From Siniperca chuatsi (taxonomy: Eukaryota > Chordata > Actinopteri > Centrarchiformes > Sinipercidae), in contig NC_058062.1 in the NCBI RefSeq assembly GCF_020085105.1, positions 6,179,945 to 6,243,944 on the forward strand: a DNA stretch of 64,000 nt, in the 5' to 3' direction. Shown in pieces: positions 18,453-64,000 of the stretch (position 1 is its first letter; every line of letters starts with the position of its first letter). The notes under the pieces are model-generated. The model was given only the letters and a program-made list of their open reading frames with translations. It was not told the DNA's origin and ran no database searches. Made by a program: the position numbers and the translations under genes.

Positions 18453-23491
<5,039 letters not shown>

Positions 23492-24894
23492 GGTTTTCCA
23501 AATAAATTCAGGATAACTTAACCTGCACTTTCCAGATAAATGTTTATTTTAGGATGACAGCAGTTAAATATGTCGTATTTACCTCCCTTCATCACATAAT
23601 TTAAGTCAAAGAGTAACCTAAGCTAGCTAAGGAGGCTCTGAGTAAACTGAGGTTTGCGTGTTAGCTAGCAGGTAATTATCACCTGTCACATACACCACCT
23701 GTAATAACAATGTTTTGAAGTAATAAGTTTTGAATTTCGGTCTTTTTGTCACAGTATCTGGTGTTTTTACTTTACCTCAAACTGATGAGCGCACTTTCCC
23801 CTCCATGCCGCTGCCTGCAGGAAAATGTCTTTGCATAACCGCAGCCAGCATCAGAAAATTAAGAGAAAAGCACACCCCTTTTATTCGCCAACTAATCAGA
23901 AAGCTCAAATTTTACATTTTGGGAAGCCCACTTCTTGTACACGTGTTCCCTGCTGCTGTCAATGTCACTGTAAACACATGCTGCGTTCAGGTGCAGACAA
24001 TTTACTGAGGCCAGTGCATATAAACAAATAAACATAAAAGTCGCGTTTGGGAAGAAGGTAGTTTCCAAACATTTACCATTTCAACAAAGTAATAGCTGAG
24101 CTTTGTAAATAATGAAGCCCCAAAAAGTCTGTTTACAAATTTAGAGTTTAAATCTTAGTAATTATCAGCAAACTGAATCTGTTGAATTATATTGATAGGA
24201 CATTTTAGGAATAAACATATAATATTATTGCTCATATTGACAACATGCTTGAGTTGCAGAGATGTGACATTCAGGTGATGCAGTAAAAGTAGGTGGCAAA
24301 ATATCAACTAATGCAGTTAGAAATTAAGTGAACCTGTTGACTAAATATTGTGAAAAATCTATAAACACATCAAAGACCAAACTGTAACCAATTCATTGTT
24401 TGGACCCTTTAATATTACAAATGGTGCAACCTTTGTGAACCTGTTACAAACTGTAAAACAAACACACCACAGGCACAGAGTGAAGTGCAAAGGCCTTTTA
24501 GAGTAAAACAGTACACAAGTTGCACATGAATTTCAACATAGTGAATGGTTTATAAGCGTTTGCGTCCAAAGCTGAGGTCATGCTAACTTTGGTAAGCTAG
24601 CTTTGACTGTTGGAAGCTCAACAGCCTCGTTACTCAGACATAACACAGTTTATCAAAACTGAACATGAGTTAGTGTAGGTATACATTTTTCAAAGTATAG
24701 ACGCAGCTTAGTGCAATGAGCTGCTGTGGAAAATTCACCTTTCCACGTTTTGTATAATAACTAATTTGTTAGATGAAATCTGGGAGTCTGCTCGGGTGCT
24801 TTGAGCCTCCTTACACAGGGTTTTTTGTGGGTTCGATGCAGCTACTGATTAATTACAGTATATAACGGTCACTCAGCTGAGTGTTGTCAGGCAG
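23492..24894. other. intergenic: cdk21 upstream region and retsat 3' UTR
   Basis: Both flanking genes are on the minus strand. The left part is the cdk21 5' flank and the right part is the probable retsat 3' UTR; a minus-strand ATTAAA lies near 24,409. I see no other gene or bounded repeat. Confidence 0.5.
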
Positions 24895-27800
24895 TTACTC
24901 CCCTTTCACTTTGGCATTAAGGCATTTTGTTTTCTTTGCCAAGGCGATGGCATCCAGATGGAGGTTGCGGTTGAGGATGACCGAGCCGCAGGTGAGAGCT
25001 CCAGCGAGAGCGCCGGCAAAACCACACACAAACACATCCTGACCTGCAACACAAAAACACGAAACGTACTGAACTCAGTTCGTACTGTGAAGTCCTGTCA
25101 GGAATTACAGGTGACCTCCGGATGATGTTGCCGCTGCACAGACGGACTCACCGGTCAGATAGAGGTTCTTCAGTGGAGTCTGAGGTCTCACTGTAGCGTT
25201 GAGTTCGGGGCTGAATCGGGCAATGCCATGATCCGCTCCGTAGATTTCACCTTTGGGGGCTCCGATATAGTGCGTGTTTGTGATGGGGGTTCCAGCATCA
25301 ATGTACTCAATCTACACAAACAAAAACAACAGGCAAGTGAATATACGTGTTTTTATTGAGCCAGGAAAGCGAGCCTGGTTTCAGACTTCTGTATCACCGT
25401 CCTAATCTGATTCGCGATTCAAACATGAATGAAGAGAAACAAAACGGCAACTCAGTCTGATTATTATTATGATTCTCAGGAAAGTTTTGTAGTTAAAACT
25501 CGTTTTTTAGAGTTTCCTGGCAAAGATAGGCAACAATAACAAAGAGTTATAAACAACATAAAACCAATAACACAAACTAATAATAATAAAAAAAGCGATT
25601 ATAAAATCATGAACTTATATAATAAGACTGATATAAAATATTTCGTCCTAGAAACAATCTAAAATGGCCCCATTAAGTAATAAGACCAAAGTCTAACACA
25701 TCAAGATTCAATCAAGAAGAAGCCATAGGGAGAGCACAGAGTTTCTGCAGCACTGATTTGAATTCACAGAGAGAGACCACATTTTGCAGTTTTATATTTG
25801 TTGCAGGAGGTTTAAGGCAGCGGGCGCAGCATACATAAAAGCTCTTCTACCTAGTTCAGTTCGGACTTTGGAAACTGGTCATAAAAATGAGACATACATG
25901 GAAAAAAGGACATACATGTTCCCACATTTCTTGGTGAATTTCTATAAATGAGGTGGTTGGGACCCAGGAAGGGCCGCCCCACAGAAGGTTAAAGAGGGCA
26001 AGCCGACCCGAGCCGACAAACAACAGTGATGAGTGAGAGCCTTTCTTTTTGTGATAAATCTCAGTGCTCCATCATAAACAGTATCCAAAGCTAATGAGCA
26101 GTGAGAGGACAGCACACAGATTCAGAAACTTTACCTTGTCTCTGGTTATCTTAGGGAAGACACCCAAAACCACCTCCAGAAGAGAGTCAATGAGCGCCTG
26201 TTTCAGCTCTTTGTAGTCAGACCCTCTGTTTGTCACTTTGCCATCCTTCCACTCCTCAAACCACTCGTAGCTGGCAAAACTGACCAGACTCAAGGTGGAC
26301 TTCCCTAGTGTGAGGAAAAAAATAAGAGAATGTTTGAGGTGAACAAACCAAAAAAAAAAAAAACATGTTGTTCTGGAGTCAATTAATTGTTACGACTCAT
26401 GCATTAAGATAGCTTCACTGTAAAAACTGACGTGCTGCATCACATCACAGTTTCTGTACCTGGCGATCTTTCCTCCCAGGTTGGATCTTTAGCTGAGGGA
26501 GAGGCGATGAACGTGAGAGGTACATTTTTAGCAGACTCTTCCCTCTTTCCATTCATGTAGTTCTCCATCCTGTAAAAGAAAACAGATCATTCTGGTGACA
26601 GAATAGTTGAGAAGACATTTCTAAATGAACTTACTACATTTCTAACAGCATGTACTAACTTTTTCACACTGCATGTTTGAGTTCTACTCAATAAGAGATA
26701 ACATCTTTCACCTGAATTCACCTGGTCAGTCCACATAATAAAAATGCAGCTATTTTATACACTCAGAATGGATTGCGGCCGCTAATAGCACCATGAATTG
26801 CGCATCACTTGCTACCGCTATCTGCCCTGAGTCAAGGTCTGATCCATAAAAGATATTGCGCTAATGATATTACAGCGCAAACACCCATAAAGTTTTGCAG
26901 CTGAGTGATTTGTCATTATTTTGCATCTATTAAATGTTCATCTGCACTTGTATGTAGTGGTCCCAGTAATATTTGTTCTTAAGGTGTACTGAAGAAGCAT
27001 ATCACATGACATGGTTAAGCAATGTTTGAGTCAAAACATGTTAGAAATGCAGTTGCAAGAACAATACTTTCCCCTCATACCTTAATACGTTTGATTTGAA
27101 AGAGAACTTATACCTATTCTATTTATCTATGAACTCCCCTGCTCTTTCATTCGTTTCTATCTGCAGGATGTCTCTCTTATTTTTCTATGACTCACTCTGT
27201 ATGGAGGGATTGTTATTTGTGGTGCTTTAACTGTGCGCTCTGCCTCATGCCTCTGTGCCCATGGATGCTGTTTTCTCTCCTACTCTGCTCTCTGCTGGAC
27301 TGTTACTGTGCGTAACCATCGTCTCCGTTTCTCACAGCAGCAGGATTTATGTTGTTTTACAGTTTCATTCCCTCATGATGAATATCAGGTATTGCACTGT
27401 CTCTGTGCCACCTGTGCACATATGATGTACTGTGATGCGCTATTGCTTCGCCTGGCTACAAGCACTGCTGCCATGATCACTGGAAAGTCTCGGCGTGACT
27501 CTCCTTATAAATACGCTTCAGTTACCACCAACTCTCAGAAGACGGAAATCATTTTCACTCTAACTGCGTGTGGCTATTAGCACAGGTGTTTGTGAAATAG
27601 ACTTTTTTTGCAGTGAGCGTCATTTGCATAGAAAGGGGCCAATTTTGCTCCAAATGTATGCATATTACCTCATTTAAATACATGCATATAGCACCGAGAT
27701 GATATTTGCCTGCAGCGCAGTTCACTCTATGCGCGCAGTCCTTTTGTGAATTCGCCCCTCAGTGTGTTTTTACAGTGACTAAAATCTCCACAGCTCATGT

Positions 27801-30800
27801 GTATCTTCATGTTTCTTTCAGACGTATTGAATTATATTAGAGCGACTTTAAGTCCATATAAAGTTTAGAACCACGTGACTTTTCACAGTCAAGCAGTGTA
27901 TACATGTAACATGCAATGCCACATTAGGCATTTTGTGATTTGCATGTTGAGCAAAAACAGATACCTTACAAACTAAATAGAAGTGTTTTTTAGTAGCCAG
28001 GTCTGTTTGGCCATAACTCAAATGTGAATTCTAACAAGCTAAAGATACAAGATGCGTGACGACGTACAATTCGTCAAAATTGTTCTCAGCAAAGATCCAG
28101 TAGTTGTCTGCCTTCAGGCCCAGCTCCTCCTTGGTTCCATTCAGACCCAGAAAAACACTCAGGCCACCCTCACCGTGCTTCATCATGCTCAGCTGCTTCT
28201 GGATAGCTGCATGGCAGGAGTAACATACAGTACAACTTAACCGACAGCTCACAGATGAAACCAACATGAAAACTTGTTTTATAAGTGTGTGAGTCAGTTA
28301 ATGAAAATAATGGAGCCTGTGCTGTTTTGCAGCGTCACTGCTTACACTTTACACTTCCCTCCAGAGCTGAAATGATTAGTCAATAAGTGCGTTTCCATCC
28401 ACCTGGTTTTCATTTTTTCCCCACCGTTTGAGGTTTGGCTTGCACTGTTAAGGACGTCATCTTGTTGCGCCCTCTTCTTCTGCAATGCTATAATAGCACC
28501 TGACTGGAGCATTAGCGCCACCTACTGCTTATCTCGATGGACCAACTCCCAGTCTTTGCGTAACAGTAGTGGATGGAAACGTGCAATAATTCACATTTTC
28601 TTTTGCCAATTTTCTGAAGAGTCGGTTAAAATTTGCGCTACATTTGGATGGAAACCTGGCTAATGAATCAATCGACACAGGATTAATCACCAACAGTTGA
28701 TAACTGTTTAACTCATCTGTCAAGGAAAAATGCTAAACAATCTCTAGTCCCGGCCTCTCAAGGGTGAAAAAAAAGCTACTTGAAGTTGTCACCTGGGCAT
28801 TTTCCCTATATTTGGACATTCTCTAGACTTAAGGATTAACTGATTACTTAAAAATTAATGACTATTAATCAAAAATAATCAATAGTTGCAGCACTTATTC
28901 CTCACCTGGCATGGCCTGGAGCTCTTTGGGCAGCAGCTCCTGGTAGGTGTTGAAGATGCCAGCATTAGAGATGACCATAGGGGCACGGATATGTATTTCC
29001 TCTTGGCCTTTCATGACGCTCACACCTGAAAGCATAAAAACAAACAAACAAACAGTGAATCTCCTCTCTGTGGGAGCTGCATGATGGGATTGTGTATAGC
29101 ATAACTGAGGAAATCACACCCACCATAAGCTTCCTTGGCGCCATTGAACAAGATGCGGTTGACTGGGGCTCGAACTAGAACAGCACCACCAGCCTTCTCA
29201 ATGATGGGGATCATGTGGTAGGCAATTTCACTGGCTCCGCCTTTCGGGTACCAGGCACCATTCAGGTAGTGAGTGACCAGCAAGCTGTGCATAGAGAAAC
29301 TGGCATCTTTTGGCATGTTTCCTGCAGATCAGAGAAGGAAACAAAAACTATGAGCAGAATACTGAAGAAATAAACTGATTACACCAGCAGAACTGTGGCT
29401 TGGCGTACCATAGGTGCCAAAGATGTAGGTGAAGACAGCCCTGAGGTCCTTGTTCTCCGTCAGTTCATTGACCACCTCTGTCAGGCTGCGGGATGCCATT
29501 TTGAAGAAGAAGGACAGACGTTTGGCCAGGCCGGTGTAGACCAGGAACTTGGCCAAGGGGACCGGGCAGACCTTCAGCAGAGCAAGGAGCCAAATGCTCC
29601 GCCTGACTTTCTGAAAACAAAACCCGCGAGACACAAATAAACTAACAGATAAAGGCTAAAATAGACTGACAAAGACACTTGAACATGAGTGCAATCAAAG
29701 TAGTTTTATTTCTATAAAGATCCCACTTAGATTTCTATATTTCCTATATTACTTATATAAGTAAACGCTGCTGTTTTGTGTATTTTGGTCCTACAAACTA
29801 TATGAGATGTCCTTTGACTGTGTTTCATGGAAGATTAAATGGTTGTTCTAACATTTGTAAATTAACTCTGAATACATGCTCTTTTCTTATTTCTACATTT
29901 CCTTACTGTAACCAAAACAATATTTAATAACTGGACATTGGCTGAGTGAGGATGCACCTTCCACAGGAAAATGGACAAGCAGATAAAAGGATGTATAGAA
30001 GAATACTTATAGACCGAAACTACGGACAAAAACATTTGAAAAAAAATGGCACGTACTTGTTTGAAATAATCTCTTAGGCCCATGAAACAGAAAAGTGAAT
30101 GTTAATGTTGTGTCATAATGCAACGAATCCATCTACTCTTGTTTACTCACCTTTTATATGTATATATCTTATTTTGGCTTCTGTAAGTTCATTTTTGCAA
30201 ACAGCTAAGAGCAATTTAAAAGAAACAAACAAGCTGAAAAATATGAATAGATGCACTAAATTGACGCCACAAAGATAAAGAAAGTGACATTCCTTTACCT
30301 GTGTGTCAAAGCAAAACGCTCTTGCAACTCAGTCTGGGTAAAGAAATGTAATATCGCAGCTAATAAGAGGCCTCGCCAATTACTCTGACCTTGATTTGCC
30401 AAACCTTGAGCCCTTGAAGAGTAAAACCAACAGAAGTCTGGATAATGAAGCCTTTTTGTGCTAAAGTACAGTTTAGAAAGACACGGTTCACGGGGAGAAA
30501 AGGCATTTTCGCAATTTTACACATTTAAACAAGTAGAGGAAGAAAATAAATGGCTAGATTGTCACTGAAATAATATTTGACTCTAAACCTCGAATGTCAA
30601 TGCAAGTTTGTGTATTGAAGATAGTCAGTATTTTGTCCTGATACTTTAAACCACCTGATCACAATCTGTAATGCAAAAAGATCCCACCTTGACCAGCTTC
30701 ATGTACTCATCGATGGCCTTTTCCTCTCCAGGGAAGCACTTCTTCAGCTCCTCTGGGAAGCGGGTCCTGCCGCTGTAGATGGGATACCGGCGGCGGTTTT

Positions 30801-33068
30801 CTGGAGGTCCCAGCACTACGTGGTCAAACGGATTCTCCAGAGGCTCCCACTGCAGCTGTCCATTAGTCATGTTGTCCAGCATACAGCGGAATGGCTTGTG
30901 GTCCAGCAGGTCGCCGATGTAGTGGATTCCTGAGGTAGGAAGGCAGAAAACATGTGGACAGAGCAGGGTTTTATGTGACCAAGACTTGCCTGTTGGAAGT
31001 CTTTTTGGTTTTTTTGCCTTGAAATATTCCCATCTCATCAGGCTACATCACAAAGAGAAGAGTTGAAAAATGATCCGTCACGCGTACTGAGGCATATCTG
31101 CACAACTTTTACAGGCCCAAATTTTGATGTTGGGTAAAAAATCTTCACACAGTGTGTCAAATGAAAAAAGGTGCGACACATTCATGAAAAGAAACAAGAG
31201 CCATCCTTCTCACCGACATCAAACTCAAAACCCTTCTCAGTGAACGTGTGGCAGCATCCTCCAGCCCGATCGTGCTGCTCCAGGACCAGGACTTTCTTTC
31301 CAACTTTGGCCAGCAGCACCGCAAGCCCAAGCCCACCGACCCCGCTGCCGATGACGATGGCGTCCAGGTTGTCAGGTACTTTACTGGCCACAAAACCTAA
31401 AAAAGAGGCAGCAACACATTCAAACAGCAGCGTGGATTCGGCAGAAATGGCACGACAACAATAAATCTGAGGATCCAGAAGGAGAACAAATATTTACTGT
31501 GTAGTCGATTTCAAAAAAAGTATTAATAAAAACATTACTTGGTTCCTTCACTGCAAATGTGAGAATTTACTGCTTTTCTCTGTTTTATGTCTTTGTGAAC
31601 TGAATACGTTTGGGTTTTTAGACTGTTGGTCACACAGAAATTAAGAAACATAATGTGGACTTGTCTTTATATTTAACAGTAATTTAAGGTTGCACACTAA
31701 ACATCACCATGATTCAGGACAACCGTAACTTTGCAATATTCGCCTGTAGAGAGTTTCTTCAACTCCAGAGATTCGATTTCATTTAGAATTAAAATATATA
31801 TTTGGATAAAGAAGTGCATGCAGTGAGTTAGGGCTGCCACTAACGGATATTTTCATTATCGATTCATCTTTCATGTAATTTTACAGTGAAAGATTAGAAT
31901 TTTCCAACAGTATAAATCAGAAAGGCGAGAAATCCTCACCTTGGAGAAGCTGGAACCAGATAATGTTTTCAATTAGTACAACCTCTGAAGGAGGAAGCAA
32001 TGTTTTGCTAATGCTATGCATCAAATTCTGGATGACAACTGAATTTGGTCTGACAGGAATATTTCAGTCTATAGTTCAAATCATAGCAATGTCCTTGGTC
32101 AGCACTAAGCATGTGGCAAGAGATTACTGCCCACGACAGTTTAAATGTGTAAATTCCCCAACAGCTACATTCTTCAGTTTGCCTTGCAGCGCTGACTGCT
32201 GTACACATTACTTAAATAAACATTTTACTTTACCGCTGTTTTCTATAGAGACATCCACTTCAGGCTTTTGCAACTAAAAAGCAGTGGTGGAAAGTAAATA
32301 AGTAAATTTACTCAAGTACTGTACGTAAGTACAATTTTGAGGCACTTGTACTTTAGTTGAATATTTCCATTTTATGATACTTCATATTTCTGCCCCACTA
32401 CATTTCAGAGGGAAATATTGTACTTTTTATTCCACTACATTTGTTTGATAACTTTGAGTTACTAGTTACTTTACAGATTCACTTTAATAACACAAAATAT
32501 AATCAACAAATAAATGATGATGTGATATTAGAGATTAAGATAAAACGTTATTGATCCCTGGAGGGAATTCACAAGCTGCCCAGCAGGTAAAATTTATAAA
32601 GGACTTAAAATCAGCTTCACCTTTACCAGCTGCAACATTACAGTGATGAACACATTAATGCATCAATAATCATCATCTGTTGATATAATATTCTGATATG
32701 GGCCATTCTGCATAAAGAGTACATTTACTTTTGGTACTTTTACTTTGATGCTAATACTTTTGCACTTTTTGGACTTTTACTTGTAACAGAGTATTTGTAC
32801 ACTGAAGTATTGCTACTTTTACTTGAGTAAAAGATCTGAGTACTTCTTCCACCGCTGCTAAAACGTAAGTTAAACAACATATTTAACGACTTTGGTCACT
32901 TAACTTACCTTGCTTCAGAACTTTATTTTTCTCTTTCCTGTCGTGAACCATCTTCTTCAACGGTTCACGAGTATCCGTCTCAAAGGGGTTGGGCCCGGAG
33001 CTGCCGAAGACATATTTCAATATAAATATGGCCAAAGCGACACAAATTATCACCACACTGATCAACAT
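24895..33068 (-). CDS. retsat: all-trans-retinol 13,14-reductase (retinol saturase), complete
   Basis: An ER-membrane flavoenzyme that saturates the 13-14 double bond of all-trans-retinol. Eleven exons (minus): 33068-32909, 31396-31214, 30929-30688, 29610-29409, 29321-29124, 29025-28906, 28206-28068, 26569-26460, 26304-26135, 25311-25152, 25043-24895. All phases agree and give 610 aa, equal to the human protein as I recall it. The N terminus is a hydrophobic anchor (residues 3-19). A Rossmann dinucleotide fold follows (VIGSGVGG, GxGxxG at 70-75, then [17 protein letters not shown]). Further family marks are [46 protein letters not shown] and, at the end, [16 protein letters not shown]. The ATG at 33068 starts directly before the anchor; no upstream in-frame ATG is seen. 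Exons 5-7 are duplicated in inverse orientation at 46.1-47.4 kb. Confidence 0.97.
27660..29341 (-). repeat. inverted duplication, left arm, block 2 (retsat exons 5-7)
   Basis: The reverse complement of this stretch matches 46,082-47,834 almost base for base, apart from a 73-base segment missing here and scattered single changes. It spans retsat exons 7, 6 and 5 with their introns. It ends about 20 bases upstream of exon 5. Confidence 0.93.
31830..31965. repeat. fragment of a fish repeat with internal AAATCCTCAC-type block
   Basis: The stretch GGGCTGCCACTAACGG ... AGAAATCCTCACCTTGGAGA resembles the repeat in retsat intron 6 and its copy at 46.53-46.75 kb. It helps show which duplicate carries the ancestral form of that repeat. 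Confidence 0.5.
32281..32859. mobile_element. MITE with inverted ends (GCAGTGGTGGAA...TTCCACCGCTGC)
   Basis: The left end GCAGTGGTGGAAAGTA and the right end TACTTCTTCCACCGCTGC are inverted repeats, followed inward by ACTCAAGTA and its complement. A nested RTE-tail-like piece sits near 32,533-32,580 (ACGTTATTGATCCCTGGAGG). The element lies in retsat intron 1, about 50 bases from the exon 1 donor. Decayed relatives are near 9.4 and 22.3 kb. Confidence 0.8.
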
Positions 33069-33260
33069 TGTGGATCTCTCAGCCAGATAGATGTTGACCA
33101 CTCCGTTCAGTGTGAGTTCACTTCCACTTTAGACCTGCTAAAGTACTGCCTGTATAACTGACAGGTGATGGTGCTGGCCAATTAGAGCCTTCCTTTAATA
33201 CGCGTCTGCCAGTTCCGACCAATCAACGTCAAGTTCACTATGAGAGCGACGCCTCGTTTT
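33069..33260 (-). promoter_or_regulatory. retsat: retsat 5' flank / core promoter region
   Basis: This is the stretch immediately upstream of the retsat ATG. It contains CCAAT/ATTGG motifs (near 33,178 and 33,215) and no TATA box that I can see. The promoter role is inferred from position. Confidence 0.4.
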
Positions 33261-33434
33261 AAAAAACGAGAAGAGAGACAGAAATCACGCCCCGACTGTG
33301 TTTCATAATTGCAAAAGAGAGGTCTGCTTGACCTCGGTGTTCCTTATGAAGAATAAAAATGAATATATATATGTATAAAATATAGAAATACTACTAATTA
33401 CTATTGCTACTATTATTATCTGAGACCTTCACAA

Positions 33435-34806
33435 TCATCTTTAAATCTATTCTAAAAACCTAACTCTTAAAAACAGGGCCTTATTAAGTGTATTTTTACA
33501 AATCTTAATCTGTTTTATTTGTTTATTTGACTCAGTGGAGTTTTACTTTATTCTATTCCGCTTTCTATACTTTAAAATCCCTGGTTTTGTTCAATAACAG
33601 TCCTGAAATGTCTAAATCTTGATAATAACTGTTTATTTCTTTCAGAAAGGGCTGTATAGATAAAGTTCAGTATTATTACTGTTAGTGGTGGGAGTGCTGT
33701 ACTGTATACACAGGAAACCAGCGATACCTGTTTGTTGTGTCACAGCGGTTTACGTAACACACTTACTCGCTTTTTCCAAAGCTTTCTCAGCAGAAACACC
33801 ATCCAGTGAGGAAGACCGTGAGATCCGGTTTAAATCTACTGATAAAGCTAGCAAGTGGACCTTGAGTTAAGATTTTTTGCCAATGGTTTACTTCAATTTA
33901 GTAAATTGCTGCCTTGATTTGAAGAACTGTTTAATTCTGTGAACATAAAATCCCCCTTTGACAAAAAAAACATGCAAAAACCTCACAGCAACTTCTAGAT
34001 TTTATTTTTTTGCTCCAAAAAAAAAGAAGAGAAAACTTCACCTGCGTCTTCAGTCTTTTCCTGCATCATAACACCATGAGAACCACTATTCTTTTACATC
34101 AGTTTGCAAACAGAACCAACATTTTACATAAGAAACACTTTAAGTGGGGCATTTCCCCAGTCATTATCATCCCCACCCACCCTGCACAATGTCCTGAAGT
34201 CCAGACTGCTGTTCATGGGCCCGGTTCCAACATCCACCCTCACACCTTAACTGATGTCACCTGCATGATCCGTGTAGAGCTCTAAAAGCTGCACTGAGGT
34301 GAAATGCTACCAGCAATGCTCATATTTCATATTATCTAGGTTAATAACATTGTGTTTGTCACTTTCTAAATGAAGCTTATAAAAGCATATTAGTGATGTC
34401 GTTTCATCGAACGAGACAAAACAAACTATGATCATGCCTTTATAAGAACTAAACACAGTAGGTGCCATGTGCATGTACGCTTGTTGCTAGATCTTTCAGC
34501 TTTTCTTGTTGGTATATTTTATTATATTAATGTTTATGACTATTTTAAGACTTTATGTGATTCCGTCAAGCAAAGTCAGCATAATGAGCTCAAAAAGTCT
34601 TCAAAAAAGTGCCCTCAAGAACATTCGATTTCCCATTTCGACCTAAGTGCTTACTGAGAGCCCATAATGGTGGACATTGAAACTGGGACCCAGTTAAACC
34701 AAGCCGTGTTATTACAAATGGGATCCCTGCTGATAAATGTGTTGAGTAAACCCCATCAGAATGTCTTCTGATGGGGTTTATCATCCTTTGTGTGGCAATC
34801 ACAACC
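33435..34806 (-). repeat. inverted duplication, left arm, block 1 (retsat-nmt1 intergenic)
   Basis: The reverse complement matches 43,224-44,581. Short open frames in it recur unchanged, or with one residue altered, in the other arm, reflecting nucleotide identity and not coding. Differences include a 14-base insertion making a hairpin at 34,747-34,780 and a one-base run-length change. Confidence 0.94.
34747..34780. repeat. perfect 15-bp hairpin
   Basis: Arms TAAACCCCATCAGAA (34,747-34,761) and TTCTGATGGGGTTTA (34,766-34,780) are perfect inverted repeats around a TGTC loop. The duplicate arm near 43,250 has only one arm of the hairpin. Confidence 0.9.
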
Positions 34807-35129
34807 TCGTCCACACACACACACACACACACATTTCGTCATTAATGCCAGAAATTTGTGCACCATGGAAATCTGCATCCTCTCACGTGCTTCCTGTCAA
34901 ACGCTTCACCGTGTTAATTAGCCTTTAGGCCAAATGCAGATCACATGGCTCTAATCGTGTTTGTGTACTTGTGGGATAGAATAAGAGATTAAATCCACTA
35001 AATCTCAAACTTCATATTACAGTCGTGAGAAATGTAAGATGTAAATGTAACTAAAGTTTCAAAACGAAACTATCACCACTATATTATGAGCTTGTGTAAT
35101 CATAACCTCTTGGAAACACCCACTAGCAG
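34807..35129. other. intergenic retsat-nmt1, right of the duplication arm
   Basis: It starts with a CA microsatellite (about 34,812-34,832) just outside the duplication boundary. I see nothing else identifiable before the nmt1 promoter. Confidence 0.5.
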
Positions 35130-35231
35130 ACAACAGTGAAAACATTTCTATCACCGCTCTCAGCCAATAGCATCGAGCGAGGTTTAAAGCTGTCGATGGC
35201 ACGCGGTGTCTCCTCCACTTCCTGGTTGAAG
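35130..35231 (+). promoter_or_regulatory. nmt1: nmt1 proximal promoter and 5' UTR
   Basis: A CCAAT box (35,164) and an ETS-like CACTTCCTG close to the ATG lie in a TATA-less, CpG-containing stretch, as expected for a housekeeping gene. Further CCAAT/ATTGG motifs occur in intron 1 (about 35,483 and 35,525). Confidence 0.45.
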
Positions 35232-42381
<7,150 letters not shown>

Positions 42382-42836
42382 CACCCTTTACGCCACACAC
42401 AAGTGTTACCAACAGGCCAGGAGACGGCACCATCGCACTGACCACCTGGCAGATGGACTGACTTCCTGCTGCAGGAACGGAAAACCCACCACCCATTTTT
42501 ACTTTTTGACCTTTTGAACTTTGACCTGCACTACCGCTGCCAGGCGTGGAGGCAGGGAGAGTCTTCCTGCTCTTCCTCCTCCTTCAATCACATGGACCTT
42601 AAGCCATTGTAGTCACCATCCCAAACAACTGTATTTCATCTGAGAGCTGTCTTGATTGTACCAAACACATATACACACAAGAACAGTTTGCACAGATACC
42701 AAACACTCATTGTTGGCATACCTACAAAACATACATGTAAATAATATCAAACATTACTGCGGATTATGCCCTAACACATACAGACTAGAAGCTGTTTTAT
42801 TTTATTCCTGAGCGTTGGAAGTGCTTTTGCAATTAA

Positions 42837-42842
42837 AATAAA
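42837..42842 (+). terminator. nmt1: nmt1 polyadenylation signal AATAAA
   Basis: AATAAA lies 456 bases after the nmt1 stop codon, in AATTAAAATAAATCTG. A genomic A-run begins near 42,869, about 25 bases on, so cDNA 3' ends here could be confused with internal priming. Confidence 0.6.
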
Positions 42843-43223
42843 TCTGTCATCCTTCAGTTTTAGAGATAAAAAAAAAAAAAAAAAAAAAAATCAAAATGAT
42901 CAAAAAATATTTTAAAGAGGAAAAGGTTCAAATAGGTGAGGTAATAAATACCAAAAGTGGACACCAGATAAGGGCTTCTGTTAAGATTTCTCTTGTCATG
43001 CTTGACCCTGTGTCTTTTTTTTATTTTTCTCATCAAACCCTTTGTGTCATTATGGATTTGTTTCAGCACTGCTTGAAGAAGACGTTAATGCCAGAGTTGA
43101 CATTCGTCTCCTGTTCTTCTCATCTGTATTAACTTTAATGACCCTCCTCCTCCTCCTCAGCTCACTGCACTAACAGAAGACTGATAACAATGGACTGTTG
43201 CAGAAAAAAAAAAAAATCAGAAT

Positions 43224-44581
43224 GGTTGTGATTGCCACACAGAGGATGAAGACATTCTGATGGGGTTTACTCAACACATTTATCAGCAGGGATCCCATTT
43301 GTAATAACACGGCTTGGTTTAACTGGGTCCCAGTTTCAATGTCCACCATTATGGGCTCTCAGTAAGCACTTAGGTCGAAATGGGAAATCGAATGTTCTTG
43401 AGGGCACTTTTTTGAAGACTTTTTGAGCTCATTATGCTGACTTTGCTTGACGGAATCACATAAAGTCTTAAAATAGTCATAAACATTAATATAATAAAAT
43501 ATACCAACAAGAAAAGCTGAAAGATCTAGCAACAAGCGTACATGCACATGGCACCTACTGTGTTTAGTTCTTATAAAGGCATGATCATAGTTTGTTTTGT
43601 CTCGTTCGATGAAACGACATCACTAATATGCTTTTATAAGCTTCATTTAGAAAGTGACAAACACAATGTTATTAACCTAGATAATATGAAATATGAGCAT
43701 TGCTGGTAGCATTTCACCTCAGTGCAGCTTTTAGAGCTCTACACGGATCATGCAGGTGACATCAGTTAAGGTGTGAGGGTGGATGTTGGAACCGGGCCCA
43801 TGAACAGCAGTCTGGACTTCAGGACATTGTGCAGGGTGGGTGGGGATGATAATGACTGGGGAAATGCCCCACTTAAAGTGTTTCTTATGTAAAATGTTGG
43901 TTCTGTTTGCAAACTGATGTAAAAGAATAGTGGTTCTCATGGTGTTATGATGCAGGAAAAGACTGAAGACGCAGGTGAAGTTTTCTCTTCTTTTTTTTTG
44001 GAGCAAAAAAATAAAATCTAGAAGTTGCTGTGAGGTTTTTGCATGTTTTTTTTGTCAAAGGGGGATTTTATGTTCACAGAATTAAACAGTTCTTCAAATC
44101 AAGGCAGCAATTTACTAAATTGAAGTAAACCATTGGCAAAAAAATCTTAACTCAAGGTCCACTTGCTAGCTTTTTCAGTAGATTTAAACCGGATCTCACG
44201 GTCTTCCTCACTGGATGGTGTTTCTGCTGAGAAAGCTTTGGAAAAAGCGAGTAAGTGTGTTACGTAAACCGCTGTGACACAACAAACAGGTATCGCTGGT
44301 TTCCTGTGTATACAGTACAGCACTCCCACCACTAACAGTAATAATACTGAACTTTATCTATACAGCCCTTTCTGAAAGAAATAAACAGTTATTATCAAGA
44401 TTTAGACATTTCAGGACTGTTATTGAACAAAACCAGGGATTTTAAAGTATAGAAAGCGGAATAGAATAAAGTAAAACTCCACTGAGTCAAATAAACAAAT
44501 AAAACAGATTAAGATTTGTAAAAATACACTTAATAAGGCCCTGTTTTTAAGAGTTAGGTTTTAGAATAGATTTAAAGATGA
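43224..44581 (+). repeat. inverted duplication, right arm, block 1
   Basis: Near-identical inverted copy of 33,435-34,806. It starts directly after an A-run (43,204-43,216) and about 840 bases beyond the nmt1 stop codon. Homology stops abruptly after TTTAAAGATG, where the AT-rich segment begins. Confidence 0.94.
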
Positions 44582-46081
44582 AAACATGCAGAATCACTGA
44601 ATGTGTGAAAGTCACGAGACCTTCATAGGACTATTCAACAGATAACTGCATTCAGTTGTAAGACAATGATGCATGAAAAATCATCAAACCTTTCAAATAA
44701 ATCTGAACTATCTAGTGTTGGTCTAGATATGAATCAGGAAGAATCTGAGCGATCTGATTCATTCTAGATGATGATCTAGTTTGCATCTAGTATAAGTATT
44801 GAGCTACATAACAATCAACATTGACATACTTTACTCAATAGACATCAAAGATATAGAAACTTTAACTAAAATTGTACACAACATATCTCAATAATGACTT
44901 AGATTAAAAATCAGTATAAATGTCTTACCATAGTCATATGTCAGTACTATTTCATATATGTTCATAGTAGTTAGTACGTTGCAATACATTATATATAAAT
45001 AATGACACTTTAGTGCATTAATATTTAGTACGTGGTATCGTAGAGATCTAATCTAAACTGACATCTTGTATAAATAGATAACATATCTGCTAAACTTGAC
45101 ATAGCATAACATATGCTGAAAAAGTATGTATAAAATCTTAAGACATTCTATTCAAAATGACCAAGCGTTAATATTTGCCAAATAAAATCCACTGTTGGAA
45201 TAAGGATTACCTGTAAACATTAAATTTTCTAGCTAATAGCAAAGTCAAACTCAAAATAATTGCAAACTACTTAATAAAAATGCGCAAAAGAAAAAATTCA
45301 ACTTACAAAAAACTTTAGAAAGAAACTTGTTAAATAATAGGCCAATAATACTAATTACTAACTTATTGTAAACTAATCTGAATTTTCCTTAATTGAAATA
45401 TTCTTTTTGTAATTAATTTGAAATTCAAGTGAAAAATATTTATATCATACAATTAAATATAATAATTAAATTCATAAAATAATATATACTTAACTGTTCA
45501 CATAAGTATTATTAAAATTAATGACTGAAATAATCACTCTTAATCAAACTCAATCAACTCACATTATAAATAAAGAACAAATCTTATGATCTTATTATCA
45601 TAATTAGGAGTTAAGAGGAATAATTGCACTTTTTAGTCAACAATAGTTAAAGAACTAGAGATTACTATAAAAGAACTAAGATAATGGATAAGTACAAAGT
45701 GACAGTTTACATCCTTAATCTACTGAAAAATTTAACATGGTAAACAAAACTAAGTAATTTTCCTCTAAAATTCTTACTTCGAAGCAAAACTCACTTAAGA
45801 AAAACCCAATCTAGAGATCACAAATGTAAATTCCAGCTGCAACAAATGCATAAGTTCAATAAGTGAAATAATCTTAAGAACAAAGCCATGTCGACTAAAA
45901 AAACTCTGTCAGAGGGAATTATCGACAGATGTCCTCCAGTATGATTTTACCAATACACAACCCAATAGAAAAAAATAATGACGTCAGTACTGCACTTTCA
46001 ACTTTTAGACAAATACTATGAGGAAACTTAACGCACTAAATGAAAAGTCACAAATATTAGACAACACCAATTTCACAACAT
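44582..46081. other. 1.5 kb AT-rich segment inside the duplicated arm, origin unknown
   Basis: It replaces the 4.1 kb (retsat exons 1-4 and their introns) found at the matching place in the left arm. It is strongly AT-rich with few GG/CC runs. It has no open frame over about 60 codons, no obvious terminal repeats and none of the repeat families seen elsewhere in the window. The last part runs straight into the sequence 20 bases before retsat exon 5. Confidence 0.6.
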
Positions 46082-47834
46082 TTTCCTTCTCTGATCTGCA
46101 GGAAACATGCCAAAAGATGCCAGTTTCTCTATGCACAGCTTGCTGGTCACTCACTACCTGAATGGTGCCTGGTACCCGAAAGGCGGAGCCAGTGAAATTG
46201 CCTACCACATGATCCCCATCATTGAGAAGGCTGGTGGTGCTGTTCTAGTTCGAGCCCCAGTCAACCGCATCTTGTTCAATGGCGCCAAGGAAGCTTATGG
46301 TGGGTGTGATTTCCTCAGTTATGCTATACACAATCCCATCATGCAGCTCCCACAGAGAGGAGATTCACTGTTTGTTTGTTTGTTTTTATGCTTTCAGGTG
46401 TGAGCGTCATGAAAGGCCAAGAGGAAATACATATCCGTGCCCCTATGGTCATCTCTAATGCTGGCATCTTCAACACCTACCAGGAGCTGCTGCCCAAAGA
46501 GCTCCAGGCCATGCCAGGTGAGGAATAAGTGCTGCAACTATTGATTATTTTTGATTAATAGTCATTAATTTTTAAGTAATCAGTTAATCCTTAAGTCTAG
46601 AGAATGTCCAAATATAGGGAAAATGCCCAGGTGACAACTTCAAGTAGCTTTTTTTTGTCTGACCAACAACCCGAAACCTAAAGATATTTAATTTACAATG
46701 ATATAAAACAGAGAAAAGCAACAAATCTTCACCCTTGAGAGGCCTGGACTAGAGATTGTTTAGCATTTTTCCTTGACAGATGAGTTAAACAGTTATCAAC
46801 TGTTGGTGATTAATCCTGTGTCGATTGATTCATTAGCCAGGTTTCCATCCAAATGTAGCGCAAATTTTAACCGACTCTTCAGAAAATTGGCAAAAGAAAA
46901 TGTGAATTATTGCACGTTTCCATCCACTACTGTTACGCAAAGACTGGGAGTTGGTCCATCGAGATAAGCAGTAGGTGGCGCTAATGCTCCAGTCAGGTGC
47001 TATTATAGCATTGCAGAAGAAGAGGCGCAACAAGATGACGTCCTTAACAGTGCAAGCCAAACCTCAAACGGTGGGAAAAAATGAAAACCAGGTGGATGGA
47101 AACGCACTTATTGACTAATCATTTCAGCTCTGGAGGGAAGTGTAAAGTGTAAGCAGTGACGCTGCAAAACAGCACAGGCTCCATTATTTTCATTAACTGA
47201 CTCACACACTTATAAAACAAGTTTTCATGTTGCCTTCATCTGTGAGCTGTTGGTTAAGTTGTACTGTATGTTACTCCTGCCATGCAGCTATCCAGAAGCA
47301 GCTGAGCATGATGAAGCACGGTGAGGGTGGCCTGAGTGTTTTTCTGGGTCTGAATGGAACCAAGGAGGAGCTGGGCCTGAAGGCAGACAACTACTGGATC
47401 TTTGCTGAGAACAATTTTGACGAATTGTACGTCGTCACGCATCTTGTATCTTTAGCTTGTTACAATTCATATTTGAGTTATGGCCAAACAGACCTGGCTA
47501 CTAAAAAACACTTCTATTTAGTTTGTAAGGTATCTGTTTTTGCTCAACATGCAAATCACAAAATGCCTAATGTGGCATTGCATGTTACATGTATACACTG
47601 CTTGACTGTGAAAAGTCACGTGGTTCTAAACTTTATATGGACTTAAAGTCGCTCTAATATAATTCAATACGTCTGAAAGAAACATGAGGATACACATGAG
47701 CTGTGGAGATTTTAGTCACTGTAAAAACACACTGAGGGGCGAATTCACAAAAGGACTGCGCGCAAAGAGTGAACTGCGCTGCAGGCAAATATCGTCTCGG
47801 TGCTATATGCATGAATTTAAATGAGGTAATATGC
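46082..47834 (+). repeat. inverted duplication, right arm, block 2
   Basis: Near-identical inverted copy of 27,660-29,341 with an additional 73 bases (46,657-46,729) and scattered single-base changes. It ends inside a repeat-like sequence after GAGGTAATATGC. Confidence 0.93.
46102..47426 (+). pseudogene. retsat fragment: exons 5, 6 and 7 only
   Basis: Exons at 46102-46299, 46398-46517 and 47288-47426 match retsat exons 5-7 (457 coding bases). By eye I see no coding difference, and all six splice sites are kept. It lacks the N-terminal anchor, the FAD-binding Rossmann fold (exons 1-4) and the C-terminal exons 8-11, and no retsat promoter is copied, so it cannot encode an enzyme. It is on the plus strand, the same strand as nmt1 upstream and opposite to plcd3 downstream. 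A read-through nmt1 transcript would see it in sense and a read-through plcd3 transcript in antisense. Lack of decay points to a recent event, gene conversion or an assembly error. Confidence 0.9.
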
Positions 47835-49779
47835 CAAAATACATTTATTAAGAACTTACCCGCAAAACTGATGGGTTATTAGGAAGTGACAAACCCATCA
47901 ACAATTACTGATGGATTACCAACATCTACAACATTCATAACTGAATTATTACCAAACATAAATGATAAACACCAGGCAACAGAATTTGTAACAACCTAGC
48001 AACCCAGATTTAGTTCTAATTAATGGCTTGTTACTGATATTTAAAGCATTAGCAAATTATTTATTGACCATTAATAAAGCCATTATTTACAACGTATAAA
48101 CTCTTAATAAAGGTGCCTTATTAGAAAGTGGTTTATAACTTTGAGAACGCAAACACACGGGCCAATGTGAGCTTCAATGCAAGTCCATCAAAAACCTTTT
48201 TATTCCTTTTCGAATAAAGAGCAAGATAGCCCTGATGAAGGCAAGTTAGCTGAAACCGTCTGGTGAGTAAAGGTGTTTTCATTTTATTATTAAGGGGTGC
48301 CAGCATTTTTACAAATAGCCTCCTGCTTTATTTTGGCCTTGGCCCACATGCAGTTCACTGGCCCTCTGGATCTCCCGCAGCTTATCAGCTTGCAAGGAGT
48401 TTAGCTGTTCACAAGGTGCAAATCAATGTGATGTGGAAATATTTCTCCATATATGTATTCCTGCGCACCCCCACCCCCCTATACACACATACTCTGTCTC
48501 ATATACAAAAACAACAATAAAGGGGCTCACACAGTGATATGTTATTAGTGCTTTTATGAAAACAGTATTTTCCTCTTATTACCAGCTGCCATTCACACAA
48601 AATAGGCTATAAGCTTTCAAAGTGCAATGTCTTACTTTACTCAATGGTTGTTACTTGCTATTGAAACCCATCCTGACCATATATACTGTAATTACAGTAA
48701 TCCATGTGCAGCACCTTTCATTACTGCACCATTTTATTATCAGGGAACCTCCCCTATAAGAGTATTTAATGATTCGCTGTAGCCTACGGTAATTGGTGGT
48801 TGTATTGGATTGTTGCAATTAGCGTGTAACCACAATTCAAAAGATCTGAATGTAAGGACAAGAATAATTACATAACAAAAATAATTATGCAGGGTTGTCA
48901 AGGATACTACAAGCAAATATCTTCAAAAGTCAAACACAAATTGACTCACCAGCTTATTTTAACATGTGTGACATGATACTGAGGCACATACAACAATTGA
49001 AATTTGTTGTGGAAATACATTGTCATTTGTTTCAGAAAATCAAAGCTTTCTCCTGAGAGGAATTAAAAGTATCTGAAGTATCAAGTAAGACTAACTGAAT
49101 AAACTCTTAATTTTGTTCAACCTTCATAGACAACACAACCTGTGACAGTCGTTGAAACATTATTACGTATTTGTAAAACAAAAATCATCATTTTGTAATC
49201 ACAGCCAGTCATGCTTAGATTCCTACTTATAGCGCTTATGAGTCAGCCTCAGTTAAGTAAGTGCTTTGTTCGGTTAAACTATCCTCACTCTTTAAGTGTA
49301 AGTCAAATATTTCAGTGTAAAAAAGCTAAAATATTTTTCTAATCAAAAATACAAATAACTCTCTAACATCTCCACTCTGTCCAACAGATTAAGGGATAAC
49401 CTACACACTAGAGTTAGCAACATTAAAATGAATTTTGTAACGATTCCCTTATAAGTGTGTTTCATGAACCACAATCCTCAGTGCCCTGTTTCCAGAGCAC
49501 TCAGCACTGACAAGACCAGATACTCCCACAGTGTATCATGGATTCATTATTCAGCCCGGGGCAATTCATTTGCTAAGAGCCAGCGCGCTTCTTCATTTCT
49601 TATAAACAACATCTTTCTTCCTGCATTAGGAAGTGGCACAGTATAAATTGGACCACTCGAGGTCTGGACTGGGAGACCGGCTGGCAGCAGTCTCTCTCTC
49701 TCTCTCTCCTCACATTCAGAGCTCCTTTTCCAAAGCCCTTTGTCAGAAAATGCATCTTTCCATCTCGTTCAGATGCACG
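47835..49779. other. intergenic between retsat fragment and plcd3 3' end
   Basis: The first 450 bases look like dispersed-repeat material (GGTGCCTTATTAGAAAGTGG; CCCTGATGAAGGCAAGTTAG). The rest has no gene visible and includes the presumed plcd3 3' UTR on the minus strand, with a CT-rich tract at about 49,688-49,708. Confidence 0.45.
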
Positions 49780-52700: not shown

Positions 52701-55700
52701 TCATTGGAACAAATTACTTCATTAGAAAACCAGACAGCCAGGGGTCTTTGAAAAAGGATCCAGCTGTGTGTGTTGTACCTCAGGAGAAGGCAGATCCTTC
52801 AGCGGCTGGGAACTGAGGGGCTTGGTGAGCAGTTTGCTGCCCAAGATAGTGCGGAGGTGTTTGGCCATAACAGCCTGCTGCTCCACAGAACAGTGGTTCT
52901 CCAAGGACAGGATTAGAGGATATGGGGACGCCTGCAGGGAGAAACACAGGAAAACTTGTATGCCAAGCCATTAAAATGCAATTAGATCTCATAATAGCAA
53001 TGCAGGACCTAACACTCTAATGCTATAGTATGTCAAAACCAAAATATGGCAGGGTTGCCTCAGAGCCAAGCATGCAACCACAAGAAGTGCAGTAGGCTGT
53101 GAACGCAACAAGTCAGGAATCTGGATTTGTTTACTGACTGACTACTCACGTATTTCATTAGCAGTGACGAGGAGCAAAAAGCATACTGTCATAGCTGAGG
53201 ATTTACACCATCAGATCAAGCTCCTCTTACCTTGAAGGCGTACTGGGCGACGGTTTCGATGACCTCCTTGAAAGGCACTTTGGAGGTGAGAGTGTGGCCG
53301 TGGTAGATGACAGGTTCACCTTTATCTCCATCCCAGCAGTCCAGCTCCACACAGCGACAGCCCTGATTCAGAGCCCTGTCAGCGAAAGACACATACTTAA
53401 TCTTACACCACAGGACGATCAAACAAATTAAGAACATCTACATAGATTTTGATCATGATAAAATATGTGCCGTTTGAAGAGTCTGTCTGAATACCTGATG
53501 TATGGCTCAGTGCTGCTGGCGCTGGTAACTTGGTCCTTGGTAAGGTAGGTGTTGTGCGATGAAGAGATGAAGTAGTGGGCCAAAGGGCGGCTCATGTCCT
53601 GGTAGACTCTGGCATGGTCAGGGTTAACCACATCGTTCTCCCGGGACAGCATGTACATGGTGAAACCATTCTGGGTCATGAGCTGGTTCTTCTGAGCTGC
53701 AATTAATGGCAAAATGTTTCCATCGAGTCGGCTATGTTTTAGTGGGTTTATCAGCAAAACTGGTGAGAGTTTAATTGAAGGGTTTAAACAACATATATTA
53801 GGACTGGGTTACATGGACGACAAGCAGCCTCCCTCTCTCACAGGGATTGAGCTAGACAGTCTAGGGGGAAAAAATTTACTTGACTTCTTTTATTAATTAT
53901 ATTCATTAAATAAATAAATTCATTTCAAAGTCATTGTTGTGGTGTTGCTGCACTGTACTTCACCTGGCAGTCAAACTGTGTTGAAAGTCTCTAGTTCAGA
54001 AAAAGTATAATCTTTTACAAATATGTAGATAGAATTTAAGGAAGTCATGCAGATAATTTCGTCTTATTTCCAAACAAATTTTCAGATTCTCTTTTACTGA
54101 ACCAGACAGTCATATAATCTTCATCAAGCGAGGCTATGTAACTTTTGACAGATCAAATAACTTATTCTTCCACTTACAAATAAAAAGTTAAATTCATTCA
54201 AGAAACAAAACGCACCATTGCTCAATTTAGTACACTCAGGGGCTTAGCTGCTACAGCCTTACTTGGTCTGGTATGGCCGCTGGCGTTTGGTGGCTAACGT
54301 AAGCTAATGTTAGCAACCTTTAGGTAAATATCACTGTATAAAGGCACATTACTGAGTCACTTCACTGACTTTATGACTCTCCTCCATTTGTGCTACAGTT
54401 ACAATAGCTTAGCATTTTAGCTCAATGCTAAAAAGTAGTTTAGCTTTTAGCATTATCACGTACAATAATTGTCATTTGTAGCCACTGTTCGGCAAAAGTT
54501 AAATAGCCTTGCTTTAATGTCGGCAAAGCACATGTTTTAAAAAAGACTTTAAACTCTGTTGGATAATTTTGTTTAGTTTTTTATGTCATATCTTACATAT
54601 ATATATATATACTCAAGATTGACATTGTGAATATTGTTTTTTATTATTTACTGTAGGTAGAGGTAATGAATAAGAGCCTTTTGGCCTTTTTATGTCATTT
54701 GTTTGATTTCAACTTGTGCAAATAAATAAAACTTTGCCTTGGACATTCTGTTAATAAAGTTTGAGTTTTTGTGGGTGGCATTTTGTTCTTTTTATTTCAG
54801 CCATTTTATTTTCAGCTATTATTTATTATTTATTTTATTTCAGCCATTTTATTTTCAGCTATTATTGCTCATTCTAAGTACTTATTTCTTCCTTAAAACA
54901 AACCACTCTCACTGCTGGAAACACAAAACAGAGTACACCGCATTATTGTGCAGCAGAGGATTTTGCCTCAGTGTTTAGAATAGCAAATGCTTTCACAGGT
55001 ATAGGCCAAATCACTATTTTGTCAGACGGCAGTATCAAAAGGGACATTCACTGTGTTTTTATGAAAATGTTATGGGTTCTTACTTTAAAGCCTTAAATGA
55101 ATGCTTTTAGGACCTACCCCAGTCATTGAGCTCATATGTGAGTATGAGGCTCTGAGCATGATTCAATGAGGCATCTTCTCCTTGGTCTCCCAGGAAGTCG
55201 CGCAGCTCAGCAGTGGCGAGCACACAACCATTACTCGAATAGTGTCTGAAGACGGCATCCAGCTCGGGCCGTCGCAGCAGCTCCCTGCAGAACTCCTCAA
55301 TCTCTATATGATCCAGACGACCATCGCCGGATCGGTCACACCTCTGGGATACAGGGGATAGGGATGAGTTAAAAAGACAAACAACTGAATACACACGGAG
55401 AAAGATAGACACATATCAAACACAGAATGCTTTTATTTTGGGAGTGTTTCGAATTCCCTGTGGGGAAAGCATCGCCATAATAATGCAACCCATCTGTGCA
55501 AACTTACATTAAAAATATGGTTCTCTGAGGAGGGTCAGTGCTGGAAATTGCATCGGGAAGGAGCATAAAAACCAACAATTCAGCTGTAATAGAGAGCTGA
55601 GGGACATAGCAGGCAGTAATCCCCCACAATAAAGAAATAACTGGCTCTTGATTTGTTGTGGAGAAGACAAGAGGGAGGGGATAAAGATGTGGAGGGGGGC

Positions 55701-62689: not shown

Positions 62690-64000
62690 ATGGACTTTTT
62701 TGCCTGCCTCATGGACAGTGTCTTGAACACTGGCAAACACTGCATAATTTCAGGACCACTGCCCTCCCTCTGTTTTGGCGACGTAAAGTTTAGCTGACTA
62801 AGGCAACTGCACATCTGGTTTAAGGGCTACTGCTGTACCAGAAACATCCCCTACGTGGATAACTTCACCACATTCTACAAAAAAACATATCTCTTTAAAC
62901 ATGATCGCCTCCTTTCCAAATCTGCAGGATCCCGTCTTCTAGCTATGAACATCAAACACTACATTGCTGCAAAGCATTCACCTCCTGAAGGTATGACATG
63001 GGGTGGCTCATTTTCCAGGTAAGACCGGTTCAGAACACATTCTGTCCTTCACTCTCACTCTCTGCTCCTGTGTCTGACATTCCTGTATTGATTACTAATG
63101 GCCCTTGTAAACACCGCAAGCCTATTTCTTGAACAAGTTGTTGCAACCCTAAAAATGTAATAATCATAAAACCCAAACCACATGGCTGTATATGTGAAGT
63201 CATGTTTATCTGTTAGTGTTTTAAATGCTGTCACCATACTTCATTCCTTTGAATTTATTGCACTGAAAGTTAACCTATCTAGTAACAATTCAATTAATGT
63301 GATAGGTGTATACAGACCACCCTCAGCTGACTCTAGTGCAATAATAAACTAGCAGACTTACTTGCTCAGTACAGTAATTTAGAGATGCTGGTTCTAGGTG
63401 ACTTTAATCTAAACTGGTTAGCAAATGACTCAAATAGTCTAAAAGAGATGTGTGACAATCTCAATCTGTCACAGCTAATTGATGAGCCAACCAGACCTAA
63501 TTTAAAGGATCCTTTAAAATTGATTTGATTCTGTCCAATAGGAGGGACAAAATTACTGCTTCTGGAGTTTTTGCGCTTGGCCTTAGTGACCACTGTCCTA
63601 AGTGGACAGACATAAGACATCAGAGATTTGCCATGCTTTCAACATACATTTTGCTGCTGCTGGAAATCAGTTTGATATGGTATACTCAGGATATGCTCTT
63701 AATAGTAAGCCTTTGGCTCATGTACCTCTCAGTTCACCCTACAGGCCTTCACCTCCTCTGTTGTTAAGGAGGCACTTCAAGCTACTGACTCCAGGAAAGC
63801 AACTGGGGAGGATAAACTACACCATTATTTTTTAAAGCTTGGTGCCCCAAATATTGCTGAACAAATTACATATCTCTTTAACCTCTCCATTTCTACTGGA
63901 GTTATGAAATATGCACATTTAGTCCTACTGCATAAGGGTGGTGATATCAGCCAATTGCCAAACTGTCCTGTCTTGCTAAAGTTCTGGAGTCATTAGTTAA
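62690..64000 (+). mobile_element. decayed L2-type LINE (esterase, endonuclease, start of RT), cut by window edge
   Basis: Broken frames on the plus strand read in order. First, an SGNH-esterase remnant (SGPLPSLCFGDVKFS, YVDNFTTFYKK, SAGSRLLAMNIKHYIA) in which the expected DGLHPN is degraded. Second, the end of an APE-type endonuclease (VLGDFNLNWL; SDHCP). Third, the start of a reverse transcriptase (ATDSRKATGEDKLHHYFLKL, GAPNIAEQITYLFN). Stops and frameshifts interrupt all three (for example a stop near 63,527). The element is non-functional and continues past 64,000. Family placement near fish L2/Maui is by motif recall. Confidence 0.85.

Follow-up and report, generated by a model that had tools for sequence, protein, structure and literature searches.

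A probable recent inverted duplication of retsat-region DNA around the nmt1 gene of Siniperca chuatsi

Results

Near-identical inverted repeats enclose nmt1

In the genome of Siniperca chuatsi, the complete nmt1 gene is flanked by near-identical inverted copies of DNA from the adjacent retsat gene and its upstream region, and this arrangement is probably a real and recent local inverted duplication. The DNA under study, referred to as the window, is a stretch of 64,000 bp from contig NC_058062.1 (25.4 Mb; positions 6,179,945 to 6,243,944 of the forward strand) of the RefSeq assembly GCF_020085105.1, and the whole assembly, 718.8 Mb in 65 contigs, served as the searched genome. Positions are counted from the first base of the window. 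The phospholipase C gene on the right is presumed to be plcd3; this isoform label was taken over from the original prediction, an earlier reading of the same DNA.

The self-comparison proposed in that prediction was carried out as a self-BLAST of the window and gave three inverted blocks: 27,660-28,768 with 47,834-46,728 (98.9% identity), 28,767-29,341 with 46,656-46,082 (100% over 575 bp), and 33,435-34,768 with 44,581-43,248 (99.8% over 1,335 bp). The base-by-base alignment carried the last block on to 34,806 and 43,224, across a 14-bp indel and one further substitution. Together, the two methods reproduced the predicted block coordinates (33,435-34,806 with 43,224-44,581 and 27,660-29,341 with 46,082-47,834). 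The inner arms had also been said to measure about 1.36 kb and to enclose an 8.4-kb spacer with all of nmt1; the spacer proved to be 8,417 bp long, with both the ATG and the stop codon inside. The longest perfect runs between the arms extend over 893, 574, and 388 bp, and the length and identity of the arms exclude a chance origin. The locus displays two copies of at least 1 kb, at least 90% alike, in opposite orientation and at low copy number, as is characteristic of inverted segmental duplications, and the repeats are long and similar enough to pair. The components of the structure and the genes around it are as follows:

24,898-33,068, minus strand: original retsat, with 11 coding exons positioned by eye and a CrtI-family match over exons 2-7
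27,660-29,341, plus strand: left outer arm (self-BLAST and base-by-base alignment), part of the original retsat, with introns and exons 5-7 (exons on the minus strand)
29,342-33,434, minus strand: 4,093 bp of the left side without a right-side counterpart, retsat exons 1-4 and proximal upstream DNA
33,435-34,806, plus strand: left inner arm, central portion of the head-to-head intergenic region of retsat and nmt1, ending next to a (CA)n tract
34,807-43,223, unstranded: unduplicated spacer of 8,417 bp between the inner arms, with nmt1 inside from its start to its stop codon
35,232 (ATG) to 42,381 (stop), plus strand: nmt1, both codons read by eye
43,224-44,581, minus strand: right inner arm, inverted copy (self-BLAST and alignment)
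44,582-46,081, unstranded: A-rich segment of 1,500 bp between the right arms, possibly native nmt1-plcd3 intergenic DNA
46,082-47,834, minus strand: right outer arm, inverted copy (self-BLAST and alignment), with retsat exons 5-7 on the plus strand
46,101-46,301, 46,397-46,519, and 47,287-47,427, plus strand: retsat exons 5-7 of the right outer arm
46,657-46,729, unstranded: 73-bp segment that the right arm retains and the left has lost by deletion at 28,767, from the alignment
53,219-53,437, minus strand: phospholipase C exon, right of the repeat

The right unit is a fragment of retsat

The right unit lacks 29,342-33,434 with retsat exons 1-4 and ends short of exons 8-11. Exons 5, 6, and 7 are present on the right with their splice sites and with zero differences in the exon sequence. 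The introns between these exons are kept as well; hence, the intron loss expected of a retroposed copy is absent and the right copy is not a retrocopy. Of the intergenic DNA between retsat and nmt1, the inner arms take in just the middle part, leaving outside 366 bp by the retsat start codon and 425 bp by that of nmt1. Judged by its sequence, the right unit is a retsat fragment (exons 5-7) deprived of the proximal upstream DNA of the gene. RetSat should not be made from it, because exons 1-4 (with the dinucleotide-binding N-terminus), exons 8-11, and both of these proximal stretches are missing.

The arms have no further close copies among the genomic matches

The genome searches scored the best candidates only, and their counts are lower bounds. 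Searching with the outer arm (best 40 of 1,081 candidates) gave 41 matches. Three were the left arm itself and the right arm in two pieces; the other 38, with 77-86% identity, fell within 28,386-28,672 and belong to a dispersed repeat. The inner arm (best 40 of 328 candidates) gave 48 matches, comprising both arms and 46 rows shorter than 100 bp. Among the matches listed from all contigs of the 718.8-Mb assembly, neither arm had a third near-identical copy. Such a copy would be expected to rank high, but the counts are lower bounds.

The survey of the neighborhood covered 273,945 contiguous bp, mostly leftward (the window with approximately 200 kb to its left and 10 kb to its right). This stretch contains no N, and besides the arms described here no repeat pair of at least 250 bp above 89% identity was found in it. 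An inverted repeat of approximately 0.5 kb with 86% identity lies about 2.7-3.5 kb to the left of the window start and is 86-88% related to a copy about 145 kb to the left of the window.

Differences between the left and right copies

The base-by-base alignment of the arms shows substitutions at 12 bases between left and right, together with four indels of 1 bp and two longer ones of 73 bp and 14 bp, so that neither copy echoes the other. Two of the differences could be polarized. The 73 bp absent from the left belong to a dispersed repeat, and the alignment with a second copy of it in the window runs through the two edges of the segment. Both edges are also spanned by 37 of the 39 listed non-self genome copies of the family, a sample drawn from the best 40 of 2,202 candidates ranked by likeness to the version holding the 73 bp and hence biased toward copies that keep it. 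Because the copy in the window and the 37 family copies span both edges, the deletion is, on the evidence of these alignments, derived and located on the left. With the left arm lacking what its repeat family keeps, and with the 12 substitutions, the right arm does not echo the left haplotype. The other polarized difference lies at left position 28,470, where all five fetched copies of another repeat read CCC against CC in the right arm; the right arm has therefore lost one base, unless the difference is a homopolymer sequencing error.

The substitutions are unevenly distributed, with nine in the distal 602 bp and two in the remaining 2,410 bp. The 602-bp boundary was picked after looking at the data, which is allowed for in the scan-corrected p values for clustering (approximately 0.001 for substitutions and 0.02 with indels included). 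The substitution at left 34,788, past the 14-bp indel, was omitted from the evenness tests, and the change at 28,260-28,261 was counted as two bases in the nine-versus-two comparison and as one event in the scan tests. The greater likeness of the inner 2.4 kb than of the distal 0.6 kb might reflect gene conversion between the arms; an origin from a different allele would give the same pattern.

Another difference involves a potential hairpin:

34,747-34,780, plus strand: hairpin in which a 6-bp loop separates TAAACCCCATCAGA from its reverse complement (perfect arms of 14 bp); both arms stand in the left copy, only one in the right

According to PMC7954356, a short template switch is expected to give a hairpin of such form. 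The hairpin of the left arm resembles this expectation. A 9-bp inverted repeat (ATCAGAATG / CATTCTGAT) at 43,216-43,261 lies across the inner right junction, next to 13 consecutive A. Inverted 9-bp pairs within 45 bases start at 117 positions of the window (0.18%).

The 1.5-kb segment between the right arms

The segment separating the two right arms has a GC content of 0.274 and an A content of 0.42. Its best match in the window was weak and AT-rich (62% identity, E value 1e-7, with the low-complexity filter off). In the genome search, which skips simple repeats and very common words, the sole match was the segment itself, and no match was found in plasmids or phages. The low-identity repeats inside the segment look like chance occurrences in AT-rich DNA and were discarded. 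Low-GC, A-rich stretches occur nearby, at 42,870-43,223 (GC 0.34, A 0.36) and 48,835-49,334 (GC 0.32, A 0.38).

At 47,862-48,132, starting 28 bp from the outer right junction, lies one arm of a dispersed repeat; some members of its family are fold-back repeats. Among the 47 listed non-self places of this family there are eight minus/plus pairs, in which the minus arm is always on the left, and 31 of the 47 places are unpaired. The partner of the arm at 47,862-48,132 was not found in the stretches tested, the 1.5-kb segment included. These numbers also weakened the idea that the outer right junction represents a break in the loop of a fold-back repeat.

Other features of the window

A 362-residue piece of retsat exons 2-7 matches crtI_fam with an E value of 2.8e-37 and 128.6 bits, which is under the model cut-off of 238.1. 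The open reading frame at 40,536-41,135 matches structures of N-myristoyltransferase 1 (E value 1e-41) and identifies nmt1. Two more retsat-like exon sets are present in the genome, C20 near 6.14 Mb and C21 near 20.57 Mb, with 33-73% identity. On the minus strand, protein kinase exons occupy 20,808-23,548; kinase matches were obtained for 20,808-21,035, and by eye the exons resemble a cyclin-dependent kinase. The open frames at 63,170-63,993 on the plus strand resemble by eye the endonuclease region of a non-long terminal repeat (non-LTR) retrotransposon. The tRNA scan of the whole window returned 0 genes and the Rfam search of the same sequence returned nothing.

Discussion

Origin of the inverted repeat

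The results point with good probability to a real and recent local inverted duplication, whether it arose in one piece or in two. DNA of retsat and its upstream region would have been copied, in reverse, into the gap between the convergent nmt1 and plcd3 genes. The original prediction, which spoke of one inverted duplication into this gap, agrees with the blocks standing in the same order, inverted, and with the lack of a third near-identical copy among the matches listed. It is incomplete in that the middle 4.1 kb (retsat exons 1-4) are absent, with 1.5 kb of otherwise unmatched DNA in their place.

There is a slight lean, held tentatively, toward a two-piece origin. The 1.36 kb of upstream DNA and the 1.75 kb with retsat exons 5-7 would then have been templated separately, flanking 1.5 kb of native intergenic DNA, through replication-based template switching similar to fork stalling and template switching (FoSTeS) or microhomology-mediated break-induced replication (MMBIR). 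Nearly as likely is a 7.1-kb inverted copy of 27,660-34,806, followed by the loss of the middle 4.1 kb and the gain of 1.5 kb of other DNA. The order and orientation of the right blocks are those of a single inverted copy, but this route requires an additional replacement event and no other genomic source for the 1.5 kb was found.

Several observations weigh against the duplication as we read it, or against the native origin of the 1.5 kb. The divergence of the arms falls within the range of fish heterozygosity. On the right, the sole polarized change, a 1-bp indel, falls in a short C run, and each of the four 1-bp indels is located in a short homopolymer, a context in which sequencing errors are common. 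The case for native origin made from composition is weak: the GC content of the segment is below the lowest value (0.313) among 1,190 overlapping windows of the same size from the 64-kb window, 48,335-48,834 is not A-rich (GC 0.41, A 0.28), and the A-rich stretch 47,835-48,134 is almost wholly dispersed repeat. Because the A-rich right flank is mostly such a repeat, the two-piece origin is favored no more strongly than stated above. The missing fold-back partner in the 1.5 kb gives no help to the view that 47,835 and the segment were once adjacent, yet 31 of the 47 family places are unpaired as well.

The main rival is an assembly artefact: the retsat region of the second haplotype would have been joined in, inverted, behind nmt1. 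The allelic level of divergence would suit it, the 73-bp and 14-bp indels might be ordinary polymorphisms, and the only polarized change on the right is the homopolymer indel just mentioned. Such an error would, however, have to produce four separate breakpoints, the absence of 4.1 kb, and, between the arms, the 1.5 kb for which no other match was found, in a contiguous stretch of 273,945 bp with no N and no other near-identical pair, and no further arm copy was listed on any contig of the searched assembly. On this indirect evidence, we regard the artefact as unlikely. It is very improbable that the repeats are the scar of an nmt1 inversion by staggered breaks, which would leave inverted duplications at its ends: nmt1 and plcd3 stand tail to tail here, as human NMT1 and PLCD3 do, so nmt1 does not look inverted, and the missing 4.1 kb would stay unexplained. 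Inverted flanks around a gene superficially recall a transposable element or its terminal inverted repeats. The arms consist of ordinary genic and intergenic DNA, and neither dispersed copies with common ends nor a third near-identical copy appeared among the matches listed, which leaves this explanation hardly any credit.

Comparison with known systems

Passages on MMBIR in Hastings et al. 2009 (PMC2621351) describe discontinuous duplications, inverted duplications, and junction microhomology of 2-5 bp. The duplication at the nmt1 locus is likewise local, discontinuous, and inverted, with other sequence in between. Inverted copies with an unduplicated spacer also recall the fold-back inverted duplications with a disomic spacer, for which passages of PMC3907307 give 21 sequenced spacers of 766-70,466 bp; those duplications are large and accompany terminal deletions or translocations or occur in rings, whereas the nmt1 locus is small and interstitial. 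As in the human polymorphic inversions treated in passages of Aguado et al. 2014 (PMC3961182), near-identical inverted repeats (longest perfect run here 893 bp) surround unique DNA with a gene; in contrast to them, just one orientation is known at the nmt1 locus. The literature search found nothing on retsat with an inverted duplication, and the search on nmt1, plcd3, and retsat together found nothing beyond a proteomics study.

Potential for inversion and significance

It follows from the map that a crossover between the inner arms would flip nmt1 and spare retsat and plcd3, as had been predicted. A crossover between the outer arms, a case absent from the original prediction, would part retsat exons 1-4 from exons 8-11. 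Flipping of nmt1 between the arms is plausible, with a single orientation known here. According to passages of PMC3961182, human inversions between inverted repeats are often recurrent. We give only a small chance to the arms being in active recombination, with nmt1 toggling in the population via the inner arms, gene conversion maintaining the likeness of retsat exons 5-7 and of the shared upstream DNA, and less frequent outer-arm crossovers splitting retsat into a null allele.

A duplication of this kind is ordinary and changes no general idea. If real, the locus would be a natural substrate with clean boundaries on which inversion and gene conversion could act between nmt1 and the retinoid gene retsat. 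It would also illustrate how a partial gene copy comes to lie in an intergenic gap.
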